DNA of 54,477 nucleotides from Myxococcales bacterium (GTDB taxonomy: Bacteria; Myxococcota_A; Polyangia; Fen-1088): NCBI GenBank assembly GCA_003158455.1, contig PMJO01000165.1, forward strand, positions 20,941 through 75,417, written 5' to 3'. Every line of letters starts with the position of its first letter. Positions within the stretch are counted from its first letter, which is position 1. The position numbers and the translations under genes are program-made. Below are positions 21,820 to 54,477 of this stretch, in pieces. Below the pieces are notes generated by a model. It was given only the letters and a program-made list of their open reading frames with translations, did not search any database and was not told the DNA's origin.

Positions 21820-22680
21820 TCACATGCCGCAGGGACAGCAGTAAAACCCGAGGCCTCCCGGAGTATACATGCCGGGCCCACATCCAGCGGGAAGGTCGAT
21901 TGACGGCGGCGGCGCCGAAGGACCTACTCCGCCGTAGCTTAGGCCGTATTCGTTCGCCGCACATCGGTCGCTGCAGCCGACCAAGTCTCCATCACCTGTC
22001 ACGACGGGTCCAGGGCAGCCCGTGGCGTCGTTGCTGATGCAACCCTCGGTGGTCCCGTCGGTGTACTTGCACTCCAGCCACATTCGTCCGGCGCCCCACG
22101 AAACTGCCGCAGCGTCGGTGGAATTCAGGCTTGCCAGCATCGGGCACGCCGTGGGTGGGCCAGCGTCTTTCGCTACACCAGCATCAGGAGCCGGGCTGCA
22201 GAGGGGACAGCCGCAGGGGTCGGGGTTCGGATGGGTTCCGCCCACGCAGGCAATCGCGGGGCACGCGACCGGTACGCAGGTGGGCGTGGTGTCGGCGCTG
22301 CCAGCGTCCTTCGCCAGGCCTGCGTCGGGAGTCGGCACGCAGATGACGGCACAGCCGCAGGGGTCGGGATTCGGCTGGAACTCTCCAGCACAGGCCGGCA
22401 CGCCGCAATCGATACGTGAGCACGTGCCTGTTCCTCCCGTGCTACCGCTCGCCCCAGCCGTGCTGACACCGCCAGTTTCACCTGCCCCGACTCCGCCGGC
22501 ACCGGTCACGCCACCGAATCCGCCAGCAGTTCCGCTGCCGAAGGTGCTGCCTGCCTGGCCGCCACTTGCCCGGCCGGCATTGCCGCCACTTCCCTCGCCA
22601 GAAGTCAGAGCAGGTTGGCTACCACAGCCCACCAGGCTCGCTATGAAAAGGGCTACGACGCCCGTAGACATCTTGCACAT
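21820..22680 (-). CDS. Cys-rich lipoprotein with Gly/Thr-rich linker
   Basis: This 286-residue lipoprotein has a signal ending SLVGC, with lipidated Cys expected near residue 19. A GGAGGT ribosome site lies 5 bases before ATG 22680. A linker of about 60 residues of Gly, Ala, Thr and Ser follows. Two imperfect Cys-rich repeats come next, each containing PNPDPCGC and ending PDAGxAKDAG. The C-terminal Cys-rich part (CSDRCAANEYGLSYGG, FYCCPCGM) is probably disulfide-stabilised. No enzyme motif is visible; a surface-displayed binding or structural role is a guess. It is divergent from the multihaem gene. Confidence 0.75.
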   Translation of the reverse strand: MCKMSTGVVALFIASLVGCGSQPALTSGEGSGGNAGRASGGQAGSTFGSGTAGGFGGVTGAGGVGAGETGGVSTAGASGSTGGTGTCSRIDCGVPACAGEFQPNPDPCGCAVICVPTPDAGLAKDAGSADTTPTCVPVACPAIACVGGTHPNPDPCGCPLCSPAPDAGVAKDAGPPTACPMLASLNSTDAAAVSWGAGRMWLECKYTDGTTEGCISNDATGCPGPVVTGDGDLVGCSDRCAANEYGLSYGGVGPSAPPPSIDLPAGCGPGMYTPGGLGFYCCPCGM

Positions 22681-22926
22681 TTGGACCTCCGTGTGCTCAA
22701 CAGGATAGCAATCTGCGTGCCGAATATCGCACCGATCTTCTTGACCAATTCCCTCGCGAGGACGCGGATATCGATGCAGTGCGGGCTCAGAATTCTGAGA
22801 CCGCGACGTGGAGATCGGCGCAGTGTGGGTTCAAGATCCTGTGGTCCGCGGGCTGAGCCCATTCGATGCTGCCGTTTCGATTGTCAGGTTTCCCTCAACC
22901 TCCGCGAACCAGGTAGATTCGGCTTC

Positions 22927-25239
22927 GTGCCTGTCGTCCTTACTCGCTTCACTGACCTCGTCCGCGCCGCCCTGTGCCTCGCGCTCGCCACCGCGTCCTG
23001 CGCGCGCAAGCCCGCAGCCCCGCCACCCCTTCCCGACCGCCCCGCGCGCAAGCTCGATCCCCTGCGCCCCGAGCTGATGCCCGGGGTCTTCGCCCCATAC
23101 TTGTTGCCCGCGGCCAAGAACGCCTCCGTGCGCGAGCAGGCCATCGAGAGCATCGGCACCTATGAATGGCAGGATTGGACTAGGCCTGGCTCGCCCCTGG
23201 TCAATACCAACGGCCACTATTGGTCACGTCTGGCTGACCTGGCTTGGAGCCGCGACATCGAGATCCACCTGGATAATGTGCCGGTAGATCTCGACCAGGA
23301 CGGCACTGTCGACACCCATGTCACGCGCCACATTTCGCTGAAAGGCGGGATCTTCGCCAACCCCGAGGTGTTCGGCTTGGCCGCTGATCCGGATCAACCG
23401 GCAGGCACACGCGGGTACACGTCGGCCAGCACGGGCTTCTCTGGGTTGCGAGATGCGCTCGACCTTGAAACCGGCGAGCCTACGGGCGACATTGGCATGA
23501 CCTGCTGGCTGTGCCACAGCGGACACAACCCGGTGGACGGCAAGACGATTCTCGGCTTGCCCAGCGCGCGCCTCGACTACGGGCTGCTGCTGGCCACGTC
23601 TTCGTTTTTCGATCCCAAACACGTCATCGACCTCGACAAAGACGGCCAGCCTGACAGTGAGACGGAGATTCGGCGGCGCACCCGCCTGCCTGACTCGCTG
23701 GTGCTCGATCTTGATCACGATGGCCGGGTGAGCGTGGCCGAGTATCGCAAGGCCCTCAAGCTGCCCGACGCGCAGCAGAGCATGGCCACCCTGCTGCTGG
23801 CTGGCCCAGGCCGCGCCGATTTGACCAACGAGTTCGGCCTGGACATGACTGTGCCGGGCTTGCACTCGCGCCGCTACAGTGACGCCGGCGCTATGCGCAC
23901 AGGCGCGGAAGGCGTGTTCAATCCCAAGAGTATCCCCACTGCACTCGGCGTGCGCTCGCTCTCGGTCATCAATTGGGCCTCCACCTATCCGACCCGCGCG
24001 CCGGATCTATTGGGCCGCTACGCGGAACGCACGGAAATGAGCCGCAGCCAGGCCATGGCCGAGCTGGGCATCGATCTGCCCGCCAGATTTGCGGGCGATT
24101 TCGACCTCATCAACCGCGCCATGGTGCTCGACACGCGATCGATGGGGGCAATTGGGTTACAAGCCGATTCCTTTGTCGGCATCATGCTGGTGCGGGTCCT
24201 GCACCATGACTCACCCGCGCCGCCGGATCTGGTGCGCAGCCTGCGCATGGCCTACGAAGCCACTGCCATCCGCAAGTTGCTCTACGACACGTCGCTGGAC
24301 AGCGTGCAGAAGCCGGCGCTGGACGCGGCCGCAGTGGAACGTGGCCGCCGCCGGTTTTTCGACCAGGCTGCGGGAGACATCATCAATCAGCAGATTCTGG
24401 TAGACCTTCCGCGCGCCTATCGGGGCAGCGAGCTTGCACCGCCCCTGCTCGCGCCCATCGACGAGATGCAGCCGCTGACCGCGCGCATTCCCGTCCGCTG
24501 CGTCACCTGTCACTCGGCCACCACCCTCAGCACGCAGAAGCCTATTCCCGCCGAGGGCCTGGCGATTGCACGCTGCAACGACTGCCACTTCTCGCACCCG
24601 CCAACCGGGTTTTGGGCCAAGCTGGGGCTGCGCAAGGGCGAAGGTCCGGGCGGCGTCACGTCGATCTTCGATGAGTTCGGCATCTCGCGCACCACTGGCG
24701 CGGCCACAGATGAGCACTGCGGTCGCTGCCACGCCATGCACCCAGCCCTGGCCGAACCCATAACCTACACCAGTTGCCTCATTTTGCCCTTTGATGCCGA
24801 CGGAGACGGCCGCACGCAGGGCGACGAGCGCGATGATCTGGCCGCGGGTGGCATCGGCACTGACAGCCTGTTCGGCTTCGAGGTGGACCGGCGCCAGCTG
24901 GCCGACAAGAACGTGCGCGTGCCCATTACCCGTATCACGGCATTGCACAGTCGCGGGCCAGCCCAGGCGGTGGAGATCGCCGGTCCGTGGGTGCGCACCC
25001 CGCCGCTGATTACCTTGTTGGCCTCGGCGCCCTATTTGCACAACGGCTCAGTGCCGACCCTGGAAGCACTGCTGCTGCCGTCCGATGAACGACCAAGGAG
25101 TTTCGTGCTCGGCCAAGGCCAGGGGGCGTTCACCTTTGATACGCGCCTGCCGGGCAACCGCAACCTGGGCCACGAATTCGGCACCCACTGGACAGGGCAA
25201 GACAAGCGCGACCTGCTGGAGTTTCTCAAGAGTTTGTAG
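22927..25239 (+). CDS. Tetrahaem RoxA/cytochrome c peroxidase-like lipoprotein
   Basis: The start is taken as GTG 22927, which gives a lipoprotein-like leader (FTDLVRAALCLALATASC); the frame is open further upstream without a signal. The 770-residue protein has four CxxCH haem motifs at Cys193 (CWLCH), Cys525 (CVTCH), Cys550 (CNDCH) and Cys598 (CGRCH). The C-terminus (APYLHNGSVPTLEALL, FDTRLPGNRNLGHEFGT, DLLEFLKSL) is typical of the dihaem peroxidase / RoxA rubber-oxygenase superfamily. Four EF-hand-like loops are present: DLDQDGTVD, DLDKDGQPD, DLDHDGRVS and DADGDGRTQ. It is probably a periplasmic or surface redox enzyme; the substrate is unknown. It is the first gene of a long plus-strand run. 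Confidence 0.82.
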   Translation: MPVVLTRFTDLVRAALCLALATASCARKPAAPPPLPDRPARKLDPLRPELMPGVFAPYLLPAAKNASVREQAIESIGTYEWQDWTRPGSPLVNTNGHYWSRLADLAWSRDIEIHLDNVPVDLDQDGTVDTHVTRHISLKGGIFANPEVFGLAADPDQPAGTRGYTSASTGFSGLRDALDLETGEPTGDIGMTCWLCHSGHNPVDGKTILGLPSARLDYGLLLATSSFFDPKHVIDLDKDGQPDSETEIRRRTRLPDSLVLDLDHDGRVSVAEYRKALKLPDAQQSMATLLLAGPGRADLTNEFGLDMTVPGLHSRRYSDAGAMRTGAEGVFNPKSIPTALGVRSLSVINWASTYPTRAPDLLGRYAERTEMSRSQAMAELGIDLPARFAGDFDLINRAMVLDTRSMGAIGLQADSFVGIMLVRVLHHDSPAPPDLVRSLRMAYEATAIRKLLYDTSLDSVQKPALDAAAVERGRRRFFDQAAGDIINQQILVDLPRAYRGSELAPPLLAPIDEMQPLTARIPVRCVTCHSATTLSTQKPIPAEGLAIARCNDCHFSHPPTGFWAKLGLRKGEGPGGVTSIFDEFGISRTTGAATDEHCGRCHAMHPALAEPITYTSCLILPFDADGDGRTQGDERDDLAAGGIGTDSLFGFEVDRRQLADKNVRVPITRITALHSRGPAQAVEIAGPWVRTPPLITLLASAPYLHNGSVPTLEALLLPSDERPRSFVLGQGQGAFTFDTRLPGNRNLGHEFGTHWTGQDKRDLLEFLKSL

Positions 25240-25333: not shown

Positions 25334-26317
25334 GTGCGGGGCGTCCTTCTCATGCCAATCTCCGCTGCGCTGGCTTCTGCCTTCATGGTCGCGCAGGCTG
25401 TTCTCGCAGCCGCGCCAACGCCGGTCGCCGTGCGACTCTCATCGAATGTCGCCGAGTGCCCGGCGTCGGCAGAGGTGCAGTCCGCGCTGCGACAGGTTTT
25501 GGGAGACGGCGAGCGTTCGGCCGGCGGGTGGGTGCTCTCCTACGGCCGCGATCTTTCTGTGGCAGAGGAGGAACGCGATGCCAGCGTGTTGATGGAGCTT
25601 ATCGACCCCGCAGGTGTCCGCTTGGCAGTGCGGCGAATTCCGGCATCGTCGGGTGATTGCCCGGCCGTCGCCAGTGCCATGGCGGCGGTGGTTGAACGCT
25701 CGTTGCGCACACTGGGATGGACAAAGGGCGAAGCCCTGCCCGAAGCAGCCCGGCGGCCGAGCGCCAGCGCGCCCAGCACGCCAACTGCGCGGCAGCGAGG
25801 AGAACGCCTGGTGCTCGGCCTGGGGCCGTCGATCGGGAGCTCGCCGCGCGCGGGAACGAACCTGCTGCTCGAAGCACGGTTGCGCGTGCTAGGTCCGGTG
25901 TTCCTGCGTCTGGGCGGCGGACTTTTTTCCGGCAGTGACAGTCAGAATGTGGGTTCCTCGGGAAAGGCCAACCTCACCACCCGCTATTTCACCGTGGCCC
26001 CGCTGGCGGCCTTTGCTCGCGGCTCGCTCGAACTTGCGGCTGGACCCAGCCTGCTACTCAGTTTCGATCACGGCGGCAGTGCAGCTCTCGCCCAGGTCGG
26101 AAGTGGCGATCGTGAGGTATTGGCCGTCGGTCTCGGGCTCGGCGTCGCCGTGCGGCTGGCAGCGCGCTGGCGGGTCGGTTTGGGACTTGAAGGATATCGC
26201 GTGGCAGTCGGCGCAGACTACTTCGTGGCGCTCAACGGGGTGAGAACCGTGGTCCTTTCGCCTTCCCCCTGGCAGGGAATCGCTTCCGCGAAGTTGGAGT
26301 TTGTCGCGTGGCCGTGA
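25334..26317 (+). CDS. Outer-membrane-like protein of a sigma/FecR cassette (copy A)
   Basis: This 327-residue protein begins at GTG 25334 with a signal peptide (AALASAFMVAQAVLAAA). The first mature domain, about 100 residues, has two conserved Cys (ECPASAEVQSAL, then GDCPAVASAMAAVVE). After a Pro/Ser linker the second half has alternating hydrophobic and polar strands rich in Gly (LLLEARLRVLGPVFLRLGGG), like a small outer-membrane beta-barrel. The protein at 53178 has the same plan. The stop overlaps the start of the sigma factor gene. The name is not known. Its likely role is sensor or output of the cassette, which is an inference. Confidence 0.65.
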   Translation: MRGVLLMPISAALASAFMVAQAVLAAAPTPVAVRLSSNVAECPASAEVQSALRQVLGDGERSAGGWVLSYGRDLSVAEEERDASVLMELIDPAGVRLAVRRIPASSGDCPAVASAMAAVVERSLRTLGWTKGEALPEAARRPSASAPSTPTARQRGERLVLGLGPSIGSSPRAGTNLLLEARLRVLGPVFLRLGGGLFSGSDSQNVGSSGKANLTTRYFTVAPLAAFARGSLELAAGPSLLLSFDHGGSAALAQVGSGDREVLAVGLGLGVAVRLAARWRVGLGLEGYRVAVGADYFVALNGVRTVVLSPSPWQGIASAKLEFVAWP

Positions 26318-26931
26318 ACATTCGGCTCGGAGCTGGCTCCAATGTAGAAGAAGTGACTCCGCAGACCGCCAATACCGGAACCCTACAGCCGCTCATTGCT
26401 CGATGCGTCCTCGGCGAGGATCGGGCATGGCGCGATTTGCATCGGAATTACTACCCAGTGGCATCTCGATTCTTGCGGCGCATGGGTATCTTTGCCAGCG
26501 AGCTGGACGACGCCTGCCAGGAGGTGTTCGTGCAGGTCTTCCGCTATCTGGCTCGCTTCGAGCGGAGGGCCGACTTCCGAACCTGGCTATACAAGCTGTG
26601 CTTGAGCCAGGCCAGTCGAGTGCGGCGGCGCCGGCGCGTGCACGACGCGCTGGATTGGTTGCTCGGCCGCGACCCCGCGCTCCGAGAGGCCGCTGCCGAA
26701 CCCGAATGGAGTGACTCCATGGTGGTGGAGCGGGTGAGGCAAGCCCTGAAGCAGATGAAGCCCATGCACAGAGAGGTCTTCGTGCTTTTTGAATTTGAGG
26801 GAATCGAGGGCGAGGAGATCGCGCGCATCTTGGGTTGCCCTCCCGCCACAGTTCGCCGACGACTGCACTATGCACGTCAGGAATTCGAAACCTTGTTGCG
26901 CACGGAAGCTGCGGAGGACGGGAAGTCATGA
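26308..26931 (+). CDS. RNA polymerase sigma factor, ECF/sigma-70 family (copy A)
   Basis: This 207-residue sigma factor lacks regions 1 and 3, like ECF sigmas. Region 2 includes DDACQEVFVQVFRYLARFERRADFRTWLYKL. Region 4 includes MKPMHREVFVLFEFEGIEGEEIARILGCPPATVRRRLHYAR, a helix-turn-helix that reads the -35 element. The start is GTG 26308 or GTG 26314; the latter would give a GTGA overlap with the preceding stop. The stop overlaps the FecR start as ATGA, so sigma and putative anti-sigma are translationally coupled. It is a paralogue of the partial gene at 54149. Confidence 0.92.
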   Translation: MAVNIRLGAGSNVEEVTPQTANTGTLQPLIARCVLGEDRAWRDLHRNYYPVASRFLRRMGIFASELDDACQEVFVQVFRYLARFERRADFRTWLYKLCLSQASRVRRRRRVHDALDWLLGRDPALREAAAEPEWSDSMVVERVRQALKQMKPMHREVFVLFEFEGIEGEEIARILGCPPATVRRRLHYARQEFETLLRTEAAEDGKS

Positions 26932-28496
26932 CGTCGAACACGCCGAAGAACACCAATTGGCCGGTTCGGTTGCGAACACGGGAGAATCACCTCGGGGCAG
27001 CCGTGCGCGAATACGGGCAAAGCACGGAAGAGACGCGGGGAGAAGTGGCTGCTTACGCGCGCGTGCTGGCCCGCGTGGGCCGGCGGTCCCGACGTATTCC
27101 CATGCTGGCCGCTGGCCTGGCCATGGCGGGAGGGTTGACGGTAGTGGCGCTGGTCGTGCTTCATCGAGTTGCCGCCGTGCCTGCACCCGGTGTCACGGCC
27201 GCCTCTCGCTCCGAGCTGCCCGTCTCGGCACCACCCCGTCCGGCATCCACTGAAACATCGCTGCCCGCGGCTCAGCCTTCCCAGACGCCACCAGTACCCA
27301 CGCCGCCGACTGCATCGGTTCGTCTCGGGACGCTGCCCGCTTCGCTGCCCGCGGGAAGGGTTGATCTAGTCGGGCAAGCCACGGCGGTCCTTTCCGCCGA
27401 TGCGGTGGCCAGTGGTCGAGTGCAGGCTGGAAACACAGAAGTCGTGCTCAGCAAGGGCAGTATCGAGCTTCATGTGCTCCCCCGTGCTTCCGGACAACAA
27501 TTCGCGGTCGCGGCAGGCCTCTACCGGTTCACGGTAGTGGGGACTGCGTTCACGGTATCGCAAACCCGATTGCGCCTGGAACTTGTCGTCAGTGAGGGTA
27601 CGGTCGCGGTGTGGCGCGGGACAAGACGTCTCGCCACGGTTGCGGCTGGGGACGAGTGGGCGGTGGATCTCAAACCCGGCGCTTCCTCGGATGAACGACC
27701 GCAAACGGCTCGCACACAGTATGTGCAGCCTGGGTTTGTGGCGCGAGGGGAGCCGCCCTCGCCCGCCGCGACCCCGGCGGCCCCTCCTCCGGCAAGGCCC
27801 GTGCCGGCTGCCGCCACGTTCCCATCTCGCGCAGCAGCGCCCACCGTTGCCTATTCGCCGGTAATCCCGGTGGCGGTTGCAACCGCCCCTACCGCCCGCG
27901 CAGCCACGCCCACAGCGCCGGTTGCCGCGCGCCGCGATTGCGGGCAGTTCGCGGCGAGCCCGCGCGATGCGCTTCCCTGCTATCAAGATCAGGCGGCGCA
28001 GAGCGGACTGGCTGGCGAAACCGCGCAGCACGAGGTTGCCCGACTTTGGCGTGACTCGCTTGGCGAGCCTGATCGGGCGCTTGCCGCATTTCAGACCCAG
28101 CGGTCCCGTTTCCCCAATGGCGTGCTGCGAACCGAGGCGGATCTCTCCATAATCGAACTCCTGCCGCGTCTCGATCGCCACGCCGACGCTTTGGCCGAAA
28201 GCGAGCAATTCTTGACCGCCCATCCCAAGGCCGAACGAAACGGCGAGATTCACCTACTGCGCGGGAACATCTATCGCGAGGTCTTGCGTGACCTTGATCA
28301 TGCCGAGCGCGAGTACGCCCGCGCGGCCGAATCGGGCGGACGGGTTGGCGATGACGGCCGGTTTTTGCGCGCCGTGTGTCTCGAGGCCCTGGGGCGGGTG
28401 GACGAAGCGCGCAGAGCCTATGAAGCGTATCTGCTCAAGCCGGGATCCACCCACGCGCAAGAGGCGAAAAAGCGCCTGGAAGGTCTTCGCCCGTGA
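26928..28496 (+). CDS. FecR-domain transmembrane protein with C-terminal TPR-like region
   Basis: The start is ATG 26928 (ATGA overlap with the sigma stop), giving 522 residues. The N-terminal part is cytoplasmic and helical, then one membrane helix (about 57-79), a Pro-rich spacer, a FecR domain (about 145-250: LSKGSIELHVLP, FTVVGTAFTVS, VSEGTVAVWRG, VAAGDEWAV), a second Pro/Ala linker and tetratricopeptide-like helices (about 340-522). FecR proteins usually bind the cognate ECF sigma through the cytoplasmic part and sense an envelope signal outside. The TPR end suggests protein contacts in the periplasm. Confidence 0.88.
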   Translation: MTSNTPKNTNWPVRLRTRENHLGAAVREYGQSTEETRGEVAAYARVLARVGRRSRRIPMLAAGLAMAGGLTVVALVVLHRVAAVPAPGVTAASRSELPVSAPPRPASTETSLPAAQPSQTPPVPTPPTASVRLGTLPASLPAGRVDLVGQATAVLSADAVASGRVQAGNTEVVLSKGSIELHVLPRASGQQFAVAAGLYRFTVVGTAFTVSQTRLRLELVVSEGTVAVWRGTRRLATVAAGDEWAVDLKPGASSDERPQTARTQYVQPGFVARGEPPSPAATPAAPPPARPVPAAATFPSRAAAPTVAYSPVIPVAVATAPTARAATPTAPVAARRDCGQFAASPRDALPCYQDQAAQSGLAGETAQHEVARLWRDSLGEPDRALAAFQTQRSRFPNGVLRTEADLSIIELLPRLDRHADALAESEQFLTAHPKAERNGEIHLLRGNIYREVLRDLDHAEREYARAAESGGRVGDDGRFLRAVCLEALGRVDEARRAYEAYLLKPGSTHAQEAKKRLEGLRP

Positions 28497-28560
28497 ACAT
28501 TTGGCAGGCCTGCGGCTCTAACCGAACAGATTGCCTAGCATTTCTCATGGAGGTTCAGTC

Positions 28561-31254
28561 ATGCAGAGAGCTCTCTTCTTGTTGATGGTGGCCTGCTTCG
28601 CCCTGGCATCGTGCAAGGATGTCAACCTAGGGGGCGACGGCGTAGGTGCGGGCGGCAGAATTTGGGGAAACGCTGGTGGCACCACCGGCGCAGGGGGCGC
28701 GGGCGGAAGCGCAAGCACCCCCGGAACAGGTGGGTCAACGCGAACCGGCGGCACCACCGGCGCGACAGGCGGCACAACATCTTCCCAACCAAATTGCGCG
28801 ATGGTCGGCTGCAGCCCACCTCCGCTCTGCAGCGAGGGCTGCACGGCACCATGCGGTTGCTGTCCCTGTACCACGGGTCAACGCAGCGGCGACCTCATCT
28901 GCACCAAGAACGGCTGCTACGCTTCGGCCGTAGCGCCCGACGCAGCCGGGCTTGACCAAGCCGTCGACGCGCCTCAGGCCGACGCACGGCAAGGCGGGGC
29001 GGGCGGCGGCGGAGGCATCACCGGCGCGGGCGGCAGCGCAGCCGGTGGCACGACCGGTATCGGGGGCGCGACCGAGGTATGCCCCAAGCCGCAGGCCCAA
29101 GCCTGCTACTACGTATCACCATCCGGCAGCGACACCAATGACGGGAGCGTAGGTGCGCCCTTCCAGACGATCACCAAAGCCCGTGACGTGGTTAGCACGG
29201 TCAATACCAATATGACCGGCGACATCTACGTCTATCTGCGAGGCGGCGACTACCGGATCACCAGCGCCATAGCCTTTGCAGTCAAGGATTCAGGCACGGG
29301 CAACCACCGCATCTACTATCAAGCCTACCCCGGTGAAACGCCTGTTATCAACGGTGCACAGAAAGTCACGGGATGGACCGTGAGCAGTGGCAGCGTCTAC
29401 AAGGCTACCCTCGCCCGCACGACGAAGTTGCGGAACCTCTATGTGAACGACGCGAGGGCCAATATGACCAGCAAGACCGTCACCTCCAAAGGCGGGACCG
29501 GGACCTACTCCGTTACCGCCGGACAAGCTGCGTGGGCGTGGAACAGTGGCAGCGGCAGCGACGGGATCACGTACGGCGCCTCGGATATTCCGGACATGAC
29601 CACCAACAAGGACGACCTAGAGATAGTCAACAGCACCACGTGGAACGAGAACATCGTGTGCAGCCGTGACGTGACGACCGCTTCCGATGGCAGCAAGGCG
29701 GTGATGTTGCAGCAGCCCTACGGGGCCATTGCCCAATTGCCAGGATGGAGTTCCGGCTTCAGCGTTTCCGGTAGTCACAAGGTCTTCAACGCGTTCGCCT
29801 GGCTGACTTCTGCGGGGCAGTTCTACTTCGACAAGACCACAGGAACGCTCTACTACTATCCGCGCTCGGGTGAGGACATGAGCACCGCGGATGTGGAGGC
29901 GCCGGTGGCGGAGAGCCTGATTAGTATCGCCGGGACTTCGAACACGAGCAGGGTCAAGAACATCACCATCCAAGGTATCACCTTCGCCAACACGGACTAC
30001 AGCCTCGTCAATGTCGGAAACTCCTACGGCAAGGCGAGCGTACAGGGGGCCACGGCATTCATCGCCTACGGTACTGGTGACTGGCACGCCTCCAAGTACG
30101 AGATCGTCGACACGTTCCCAGGGATGATCATGGTGAGTAGCGCCGATTCGATCAACATCGTCGGCAATGTGGTCAAGCACAGCGGCAATGAGGGAATTTC
30201 GATGATCAACGACGTCATCAACTCCAACATCATTGGCAACTACATCACCGACGTTGCTGGCAGCGGCATGACGATAGGCCACCCGCAGCATGTCTACATA
30301 GGAGACGGGGGCACCCACGAGAAGTACGCCAAGGGGGTAGAGGGAGCTTGCACCAAAGATACGATCAACAACAACGTCGTCTACAACGTGAGCACTCTCC
30401 CCGGGTTCGGCGGACATTCGGGGATCACGGCGTTCTTCGTGGACACGCTCACGATTACCCACAACCTCATCCACTCGACCGCCTACAACGGGATCAATCT
30501 AGGATGGGGATGGAAGAATTTCACCGACTCAACTACCTGCAAGAACAATACGTGTAGCTTCAATCGGTTCAACAACATGATGACCCGATTGCACGACAGC
30601 GGTGCGGTCTACACCATCGGGCAGGAGCCGGGGACCAACATCAACCAGAACTACGTCAAAGGGATTCCGAACAACTCGTCAGGGCCCACGTATGGTCTGC
30701 ACAACGACGAGGGGAGCGCGTACATCACGGAGAACGACAACGTCCTCGACATCGACAAGGGCGTCACGTACACCATCAACTGCGAGGACTACGGGGCGAA
30801 GCACGACCTGACCATTCTGAGGACGTACGCGACGGTCAACAAGATGGGGGCCCCCCCGCCGACCAGCACGATCGACACGCCGATCGTGGTCGCCGACGCC
30901 GTGTGGCCCGTCACACAGTATGGCTATTGCGTGGCCTCCGGAGTTGAGGACACCTACCGAAGCATCGTACCGAGCGCCCTGGTCTCGACACCGGACTTTG
31001 TTTTTCCGGCCAGTTGCTCTGCGCCTAAAGGGACCGCAACGCTCACCATCAGAAGCAGCGGCAGCGCCTCGAACACGGTTTGGTTCGCCCCCGCCGGTAC
31101 GACGACTTTTACTGAGGGCGCCACCATGACGAAGGCGGCGGGAGATGCGACATCGATTGCGGTTCCTACGACGGCGGGAAGCTACAAGCTGTCTGTCGTG
31201 GATTCCCAGGGCAAGAAGCTGGGCGAATCGGCTGCCCTGTTGCGGGTGAATTGA
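28561..31254 (+). CDS. Secreted lipoprotein with right-handed parallel beta-helix
   Basis: The start is ATG 28561, set by GGAGGT six bases upstream; an ATG at 28531 lacks a site. The 897-residue product has a lipoprotein signal (CFALASC), a Gly/Thr-rich linker, a short Cys-rich segment (CSEGCTAPCGCCPCTTGQ), a second Gly-rich linker, then a large domain starting CYYVSPSGSDTNDGS. Repeated short turns (KNITIQGITFANTDYSL, INIVGNVVKHSGNEGI, SNIIGNYITDVAG) are typical of PbH1 beta-helix proteins, many of which bind or cleave polysaccharides. No catalytic triad was identified. A small beta domain ends the protein. Confidence 0.85.
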   Translation: MQRALFLLMVACFALASCKDVNLGGDGVGAGGRIWGNAGGTTGAGGAGGSASTPGTGGSTRTGGTTGATGGTTSSQPNCAMVGCSPPPLCSEGCTAPCGCCPCTTGQRSGDLICTKNGCYASAVAPDAAGLDQAVDAPQADARQGGAGGGGGITGAGGSAAGGTTGIGGATEVCPKPQAQACYYVSPSGSDTNDGSVGAPFQTITKARDVVSTVNTNMTGDIYVYLRGGDYRITSAIAFAVKDSGTGNHRIYYQAYPGETPVINGAQKVTGWTVSSGSVYKATLARTTKLRNLYVNDARANMTSKTVTSKGGTGTYSVTAGQAAWAWNSGSGSDGITYGASDIPDMTTNKDDLEIVNSTTWNENIVCSRDVTTASDGSKAVMLQQPYGAIAQLPGWSSGFSVSGSHKVFNAFAWLTSAGQFYFDKTTGTLYYYPRSGEDMSTADVEAPVAESLISIAGTSNTSRVKNITIQGITFANTDYSLVNVGNSYGKASVQGATAFIAYGTGDWHASKYEIVDTFPGMIMVSSADSINIVGNVVKHSGNEGISMINDVINSNIIGNYITDVAGSGMTIGHPQHVYIGDGGTHEKYAKGVEGACTKDTINNNVVYNVSTLPGFGGHSGITAFFVDTLTITHNLIHSTAYNGINLGWGWKNFTDSTTCKNNTCSFNRFNNMMTRLHDSGAVYTIGQEPGTNINQNYVKGIPNNSSGPTYGLHNDEGSAYITENDNVLDIDKGVTYTINCEDYGAKHDLTILRTYATVNKMGAPPPTSTIDTPIVVADAVWPVTQYGYCVASGVEDTYRSIVPSALVSTPDFVFPASCSAPKGTATLTIRSSGSASNTVWFAPAGTTTFTEGATMTKAAGDATSIAVPTTAGSYKLSVVDSQGKKLGESAALLRVN

Positions 31255-53067: not shown

Positions 53068-53177
53068 TTGCACAGCCCGACGATAGCCAAAACCACGTTT
53101 CGGGAAAGGCTTGATCTTTGGAAAAGGCAGATCACAGCGTTTCTCACCGCGCCCCAACCGGGTGTACTGTGGATTGC

Positions 53178-54149
53178 GTGAACCGGCTACCAGCGAACCT
53201 CTTGCGCCTCAGCGCCGTGCTCAGTGTGGCTGTGCTGGGGAATGCGCGTCCGGTTTGCGCCGGTGAGGCGGGAGCATTGACATTCTCTTGGCAGGCCCCT
53301 GCCGGCTGTCCTTCGCGCGACGACCTGCGCGCCGAGATCGCGCGCCTGCTGGGCGGGGACACCCGGGTACCCCAGAACGGCGATATCAAGGCGCGCGCGG
53401 TGGTGGCGCATGGGCAGACCTGGTCGCTCGCGATCGAAACCGAACTAGCAGGCCGACCCGGACAGCGGTCGATTGAGGCTGCCTCCTGCCAGGATCTCGC
53501 CGATGCTACCGCCCTCATCATCGCACTGATGATCGATCCCGACGCGGTCGCCGCCCATGCGACTCCGCCGAAGCCGATACCTGCGACGCCTTCCGTGCAG
53601 GCCGGTCCCGTGCCCGCAAAGCAGCCCCGATCCGTGGAGTACCTGGTGGGCATTCACGCCGCGGGCAGCTACGGGACCTTGCCTTCCGTCGACGTGGGTC
53701 TGGGCGGCGGGGTAGGGCTGGCCGGGCGACGCTGGCGGGCGGAACTGCGGGGAACGTACGGTTTGCGGCGCGAGCAAAAGGCCATGGCAGCGGCACCCGC
53801 CGGTGCCTATGGCCTGTTCGGCTTCACCAGCGCGACGCTCGCGGCTTGTTTCAACCTCGGGCGGGAGGGTTCGGCCTTTGGTCCTTGTGCGGACTACGAA
53901 CTGGGCGTGATATCGGCCAGGGGGTTTGGTGTCAGCGAGAGCTTGCCTGCGCAAACCCTGTGGTCGGCCCTGGGCGCCGGCGCCTACGCTGCGATCCGGC
54001 TCGGCTCTCATTTCAGCCTTCCCCTACATGTGGACGTGTTGGCTCCCTTGCGGCGTACCGAGTTCGTGTTCAAGAACGAGCCAGGCCGGGTCTTCCAGGC
54101 CCCGGCCGTGGGGGTCCGCATAGGCCTCGGGGTCGAGTTGCATTTCTGA
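53178..54149 (+). CDS. Outer-membrane-like protein of a sigma cassette (copy B)
   Basis: GTG 53178 starts a clear signal peptide (LLRLSAVLSVAVLGNARPVCAG). The 323-residue product has an N-terminal domain with two Cys (AGCPSRDDLRAEIARLLGG, then EAASCQDLADATALIIALM), a Pro-rich linker and a Gly-rich beta half ending VRIGLGVELHF, a plausible outer-membrane beta-signal. The plan matches copy A at 25334, though identity looks low. It is divergent from tex, 110 bases apart, and its stop overlaps the start of the next sigma gene by one base. Confidence 0.65.
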   Translation: MNRLPANLLRLSAVLSVAVLGNARPVCAGEAGALTFSWQAPAGCPSRDDLRAEIARLLGGDTRVPQNGDIKARAVVAHGQTWSLAIETELAGRPGQRSIEAASCQDLADATALIIALMIDPDAVAAHATPPKPIPATPSVQAGPVPAKQPRSVEYLVGIHAAGSYGTLPSVDVGLGGGVGLAGRRWRAELRGTYGLRREQKAMAAAPAGAYGLFGFTSATLAACFNLGREGSAFGPCADYELGVISARGFGVSESLPAQTLWSALGAGAYAAIRLGSHFSLPLHVDVLAPLRRTEFVFKNEPGRVFQAPAVGVRIGLGVELHF

Positions 54150-54477
54150 TGACGGATCTGCGCGCACCCGGGAACCAAGGGATCAGTATGAGATCTCCTG
54201 CCGGGAACGCGCTTCAAACCGCGGCTTCGCCGAGCGGCGCGTCTGTCCCGGACTTCGATGCCGTGTACGAGGCCCACATGGATTTTGTGTGGCGGGCGGT
54301 GCGTCGCATGGGGGTCCGGCTGGCGGACATGGACGATGTGGTGCAAGAGGTGTTCTTCGTCGTGCACCGCCGTCTGGCCGAGTTCGAGGGCCGGGCGCAG
54401 CTCAAGACCTGGGTGTTCAAGATCCTGGTGCATGTGGTGAGGCACTACTGGCGCACCCACCAGCGCAAACCCGGAGA
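54149..54477 (+). CDS. RNA polymerase sigma factor, ECF type (partial, copy B)
   Basis: ATG 54149 shares its A with the TGA of the upstream gene. The 109 visible codons encode a non-conserved start and sigma region 2: FDAVYEAHMDFVWRAVRRMG, DMDDVVQEVFFVVHRRLAEF and LKTWVFKILVHVVRHYWR. The gene runs off the right edge, so region 4 and any anti-sigma gene are not visible. By analogy with copy A a FecR gene would be expected next. Confidence 0.88.
   Translation, partial: MTDLRAPGNQGISMRSPAGNALQTAASPSGASVPDFDAVYEAHMDFVWRAVRRMGVRLADMDDVVQEVFFVVHRRLAEFEGRAQLKTWVFKILVHVVRHYWRTHQRKPG

Follow-up and report, generated by a model that had tools for sequence, protein, structure and literature searches.

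A small outer-membrane barrel protein encoded with an ECF sigma factor and a TPR protein: a candidate signalling cassette of Myxococcota

Introduction

How might a sigma factor be linked to the cell surface when the outer-membrane protein encoded beside it has no look of a TonB receptor? Two loci, here called cassettes A and B, raise this question in the 54,477-nucleotide stretch of a Myxococcales contig that we analyzed (the window). A first-pass annotation, made from the letters alone, had seen in both an exported protein followed by a sigma factor, and had likened the arrangement to Fec-type surface signalling. Our analysis suggests that the barrel, sigma, and TPR proteins, which soil bacteria related to Sorangium encode in many copies per genome, probably carry signals from the cell surface to genes without a TonB-type receptor. 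In the version that we regard as moderately probable, they form a Fec-like, trans-envelope ECF signalling cassette in which the place of the TonB receptor and its STN domain would be taken by a new periplasmic domain joined to a small barrel.

Organization of the two cassettes

The coordinates of both cassettes are given in Table 1. Open reading frames, Pfam, and TIGR02937 confirmed that the loci have the same order, a gene for an exported barrel protein and then one for a sigma factor. The reported overlap between the sigma start and the preceding stop was found in each: the GTG at 26314 of cassette A shares the motif GTGA with the stop of the barrel gene, and in B one base is shared at 54149. 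The sigma factor of A matched Sigma70_r2 (9.5e-9) and r4_2 (3.6e-12) in Pfam and TIGR02937 (6e-22); it ends at its own stop and is not fused to the FecR-TPR protein. The continuation of copy A with a FecR-TPR gene was borne out by Pfam matches to FecR (7.3e-6) and TPR and by the overlap with the sigma stop. This cassette is flanked by a RoxA-like cytochrome gene (22615-25239 of the window) and by a gene for a Gly-rich lipoprotein with GH141/beta-helix domains (28531-31254).

The end of the window is the end of the contig (G000:C124, 75417 bp), and the gene to the right of B lies beyond it. In four orthologues from within the genus (L082, L083, L085, and L086), the sigma factor is full length and the next gene, with ATGA over the sigma stop, encodes a helix-TPR protein without FecR.

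Table 1. Features of cassettes A and B (positions of the window)
Feature	Position	Strand	Remarks
Cassette A, whole	25334-28496	+	barrel gene, then ECF sigma, then FecR-TPR; genes overlap
A, barrel gene	25334-26317	+	ORF; GTG start, in-frame ATG 25352; stop TGA 26315-26317
A, barrel protein, signal peptide	N-terminal, in 25334-26317	+
A, barrel protein, periplasmic domain (predicted)	about 25424-25711	+	AlphaFold2 model
A, barrel protein, Pro-rich linker	25712-25807	+
A, 8-strand barrel (predicted)	25808-26311	+	AlphaFold2 and Foldseek
A, ECF sigma	26308-26931	+	GTG 26308 or 26314
A, FecR-TPR gene	26928-28496	+	ATG 26928; ATGA overlap with sigma stop
A, third protein, cytosolic N-terminus (predicted)	about 57 aa	+	hydropathy
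A, third protein, TM helix (predicted)	27096-27164	+	hydropathy
A, third protein, FecR domain	27375-27605	+	Pfam
A, third protein, TPR domain	28071-28463	+	Pfam; Pro/Ala linker ahead of TPR
Cassette B, whole	53178-54477	+	barrel gene, then sigma, cut by contig end
Conserved block upstream of B start	53140-53177	+	about 38 bases; aligned in 6 species of the genus
B, barrel gene	53178-54149	+	GTG start; stop TGA 54147-54149
B, barrel protein, signal peptide	N-terminal, in 53178-54149	+
B, barrel protein, periplasmic domain (predicted)	53277-53555	+	AlphaFold2 model
B, barrel protein, Pro-rich linker	53556-53636	+
B, 8-strand barrel (predicted)	53637-54143	+	AlphaFold2 and Foldseek
B, ECF sigma, partial	54149-54477	+	ATG 54149, 1-base overlap with barrel stop; TIGR02937 1e-11

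Homology and predicted fold of the barrel proteins

BLASTP gave almost no signal between the barrel proteins of A and B. Their profiles, 37-member for B and 8-member for A, aligned over 268 columns (hhalign 98%, E = 5.7e-14). An HMM built solely from B sequences recovered the A protein (6e-9) and, in the same genome, the first genes of two more FecR loci (7e-6 and 6e-5); the best other proteins scored 0.0086 and weaker. The AlphaFold2 models (pLDDT 86 for B and 78 for A) share one domain order, in which a beta-alpha-beta-beta-beta-alpha domain (N-domain) is followed by a Pro-rich linker and an 8-strand barrel of the OmpA/OmpX type. On these profiles and models the two proteins are remote homologues with the same predicted fold, in keeping with the pairing of the loci in the first-pass annotation; unrelated folds were not found.

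In both models eight antiparallel strands close the barrel (AlphaFold2 and Foldseek), which has about 170 aa and no plug. Foldseek related the A barrel to OmpA/OmpX (E = 2e-6) and the B barrel to OmpA/Ail/OmpX (E = 4.5e-7 and weaker). Across the two lists the matches were 8-strand barrels (OmpA, Ail, OmpX, NspA, and OmpW) that covered the barrel part, with identities of 10-16% that indicate likeness of fold and not a sequence family. The N-domain had no match of its own in these whole-protein lists. Its Cys pair, which had been noticed at the outset together with the barrel-like C-terminus, is C42/C109 in A and C44/C104 in B and is invariant in the respective alignments (37 members for B). No family model of Pfam or NCBIfam covered either barrel protein, and a search of the PDB with the sequence profile gave no match. 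Because both ends of 8-strand barrels face the periplasm, the N-domain should be periplasmic; the barrel topology of the models likewise suggests an outer-membrane location.

Sequence models found no STN match at E <= 1 in A, B, or the 37 barrel-protein members, and no TonB-receptor Pfam match was obtained for the barrel proteins. The identity of the barrel protein as a TonB receptor was refuted by the AlphaFold2 model, from which the plug and the large barrel are missing. The first impression of a Fec-type likeness with the outer-membrane gene in first place and no TonB-receptor look held. The FecR domain of copy A could still speak for classic Fec-type iron-uptake signalling with an unrecognised TonB receptor. 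However, a plugless 8-strand barrel of this size with no STN match, a reversed gene order, and B-type cassettes without FecR leave that explanation a negligible probability.

The third protein and the FecR domain

In the third proteins of B-type cassettes, about 50-60 cytosolic aa precede one hydrophobic helix (near residue 50-90; L114 has it farther along). A Pro/Ala linker then leads to a TPR-like C-terminus, where 10 of 13 members carry two Cys 31-32 residues apart. The C-terminal part of the A FecR protein is homologous to this TPR part (hhalign 97.7%, E = 1.6e-12; hmmsearch 1.2e-12), which indicates that cassette A is a B-type cassette with a FecR domain inserted between helix and TPR. 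In Fec-type anti-sigmas, the periplasmic part is known to be a FecR domain. A protein with this domain adjoins the sigma factor in A and in its intact homologues (L044-L047, L049, and L050), and B-type relatives are without it; the A form is narrow, occurring in 9 of 144 genomes, all within the genus and family. Of the barrel/sigma/FecR-TPR cassette first described, the order stood, but FecR did not prove to be a constant part. The constant third part is a helix with a periplasmic TPR, FecR belonging to the A-type minority, so the gene to the right of B is predicted to encode a helix-TPR protein without FecR.

Two species of the genus carry damaged versions of cassette A. In one (L048:3114-4222) the N-domain of the barrel protein runs directly into the FecR ORF, and barrel and sigma are missing; in the other (L051) the match is a stop-containing remnant alone.

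The best family match of the TPR part was BamD/YfiO, and it was weak (TIGR03302 in 11 of 13 members, PF13525 in 9 of 13). BamD TPRs and DegS/RseA recognise outer-membrane proteins before assembly. The barrel protein might then be a sentinel of outer-membrane assembly, its unassembled barrel being recognised by the TPR, and the sigma factor would answer envelope stress and not an outside ligand; a barrel gene at the head of the operon suits this. We consider it unlikely, since TPRs are generally alike, the conserved N-domain would be left without a role, and the approximately 25 diverged barrel paralogues of Nannocystis suggest many inputs and not one assembly check.

No anti-sigma model matched the cytosolic N-terminus (about 50-60 aa) of the third protein. 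With so short a cytosolic part, this protein could serve to anchor the sigma factor in position at the membrane without inhibiting it, activity being set by proteolytic release alone or by synthesis. Sigma and helix-TPR form one ORF in 10 of 83 unique cassettes and, by the census of Nannocystis poenicansa FL3, in 9 there, and these fused forms are membrane-tethered sigmas, for which there are precedents in IutY, released by proteolysis, and SCO4117 (PMC8999054). However, sigma and anchor are separate in most cassettes, so a binding site would be needed. FecR proteins, as found in the A type, usually regulate sigma factors, and an anchor function of this kind appears distinctly improbable.

Conservation of the gene order

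The B-type barrel protein was present in 67 of 144 related genomes and absent from the plasmids searched. Leaving aside the random stretch L119, every barrel locus from L082 to L121 has a sigma gene immediately 3' of the barrel gene and in the same orientation; the one exception is L117, with a distance of about 2.4 kb. Among 80 sigma loci chosen regardless of their neighbours, 66 had the barrel gene directly upstream, 72 had a helix-TPR downstream or fused, and 60 had both; because the query alignment was built from cassette sigmas, these counts show that the cassette is kept by that clade and do not extend to sigmas in general. Several of the exceptions are contig ends, and L127 has a divergent barrel gene alongside. 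Nearly all of these loci are titled Myxococcota or Deltaproteobacteria; two come from a MAG titled 'bacterium' and one is titled 'proteobacterium'.

Counted from the barrel side in complete genomes, 22 of 25 barrel genes of N. poenicansa FL3 had a sigma and a TPR gene, and in Sorangium cellulosum So0157-2 a sigma gene accompanied 9 of 16 barrel loci and was absent from 7. The expectation that the outer-membrane gene and the sigma gene would keep together in relatives was thus upheld. Further named carriers are Minicystis rosea, Polyangium fumosum, and Paraliomyxa miuraensis, and the same order occurs in other classes of the phylum (L210, L211, L213, L215, L216, and L218). The window's own genome has nine barrel genes by profile, most in cassettes and some with rearranged order, and further A-type loci at C3 and C201. 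With 62 Sigma70_r2 genes in a genome of 6.36 Mb, sigma density is low and chance adjacency would be about 1%; the barrel-sigma order is above chance and recurs in dozens of genomes.

Variant arrangements were also seen. A tandem barrel-sigma-barrel-sigma-TPR set lies at L206:2512-7871 (minus strand), and the order at L209:4280-6797 (minus strand) is sigma-TPR-barrel. Directly upstream of the sigma/FecR pair at L021:1501-2112 (minus strand) is the gene for a 653-aa protein that looks Omp85/BamA-like by eye, with no small barrel there.

Proposed mechanism and relation to known systems

The ECF sigma gene adjoins the barrel gene, as Fec-type signalling requires. The domain architecture shown by profiles and models would place a small 8-strand barrel in the outer membrane, with a Pro-rich tether from which its two-Cys N-domain hangs in the periplasm. 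The third protein would cross the inner membrane once, its cytosolic N-terminus being short and its periplasmic TPR sitting at the end of a long tether; FecR is an extra of the A type. We infer the signal and the direction of control as follows. The cytosolic part of the third protein would keep the ECF sigma inactive, and the periplasmic domain of the barrel protein would touch the TPR or FecR-TPR part. This contact would shift when the barrel or the cell surface changes, and the sigma factor, freed or cleaved as a result, would transcribe its own operon and nearby surface-protein genes.

In favour of this mechanism we counted the gene order, the sigma/helix-TPR fusion, the homologous parts, the FecR of the A type, the stop/start overlaps, and co-variation; against it, the short cytosolic N-terminus without an anti-sigma match and the barrel genes without a sigma factor (7 of 16 in Sorangium). 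The partial correlation of distances was 0.24 between N-domain and TPR, against 0.25 between N-domain and barrel of the same protein, a co-variation that also fits inheritance as a block.

Fec-type systems (FecA-FecR-FecI; FoxA-FoxR-FoxI, PMC11637429) have in common with the cassette an outer-membrane barrel with an N-terminal periplasmic domain, an ECF sigma, and an anti-sigma-like protein that crosses the membrane once and has its sensor part in the periplasm, as well as FecR in the A type. The periplasmic domain of FoxA binds the anti-sigma FoxR and shields it from proteolysis (PMC11637429). Those systems use a large TonB-dependent receptor with STN, whereas here an 8-strand barrel has no STN match, the TPR is the constant periplasmic part, the barrel gene comes first, and FecR is usually absent. 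In the Dma proteins, reported from Bacteroidota only, anti-sigma, helix, tether, and barrel form a single chain (PMC13088901), and the partner sigma is of group ECF21. In the cassette a separate gene encodes the barrel, complete with periplasmic domain and tether, and contact in the periplasm would be between two domains, each on a tether. By analogy, the cassette resembles a Dma protein split in two, its two tethers meeting in the periplasm, or else a Fec system whose receptor is reduced to a minimum.

Sigma/anti-sigma fusions (IutY; ECF48, ECF52, and ECF53; PMC8999054) join sigma and membrane regulator in one chain, as about 10 loci do here, but without a dedicated small barrel; the partner of IutY is a TonB receptor, and the periplasmic parts differ. 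RpoE/RseA/DegS with BamD also ties an ECF sigma to the state of outer-membrane proteins, and the TPR is weakly BamD-like, but the cassette has no RseA or PDZ protease and has one dedicated barrel protein per sigma.

No such cassette is described in the literature on myxobacteria that we searched, though the main 2021 ECF classification may list some of these neighbours; there is a real chance that the cassette is a distinct class of signalling system. We see roughly an even chance that the system is phylum-wide and heavily multiplied in Myxococcota and that its 8-strand barrels, each dedicated to a private ECF sigma and bearing a new periplasmic domain, control that sigma through TPR proteins on tethers. 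Such a system would add a third architecture to those of TonB transducers and Dma, and it would explain part of the many myxobacterial sigmas without a recognised anti-sigma. S. cellulosum So0157-2 is annotated with 109 sigma factors and 6 anti-sigma proteins (PMC3696898). For a set of such sigmas the cassette supplies candidate partners, and the prediction for each is a surface barrel and a TPR regulator. Small barrels are usually seen as adhesins or porins. If the contact between N-domain and TPR is real, they become receptors, and each genome would hold many parallel channels from the outside to the genes, open to study in culturable Nannocystis, Sorangium, Minicystis, and Polyangium.

Upstream sequences and neighbouring genes

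Strong conservation in six species extends about 38 bases 5' of the B start and not farther upstream, and the block is likely a promoter or leader. A regulon search of the genome with this block matched its own site alone, so no regulon was inferred. The comparison was also made for A, where the upstream spacing is not conserved, and we therefore claim no promoter there.

The conserved block, like the first-gene position, which suits an autoregulated operon, could mean that the barrel protein is output alone: the helix-TPR or FecR-TPR protein would sense the periplasm itself, and the sigma factor would drive an operon that includes the barrel as a surface product. We judge this to be quite unlikely. 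Across the family, the N-domain and its two Cys are conserved together with the barrel, the N-domain distances track the TPR, and most of the sigma clade keeps the barrel gene, beyond expectation for a mere target.

Gly-rich lipoproteins of a similar kind, one or two per locus (MTRLTTTPAI... / MTKFAITPV...), are encoded about 1 kb past cassette B in L083, L085, and L086, and their genes are possible targets. At other sigma/FecR pairs of the window's genome, in L022 (7082-8044), L025, L028, L032 (6867-7904), and L033, an N-domain-plus-barrel-like gene with weak profile scores, possibly related, lies 3' of FecR, and in several of these loci Gly-rich lipoprotein or glycoside-hydrolase-like genes are found just 5' of the sigma gene.
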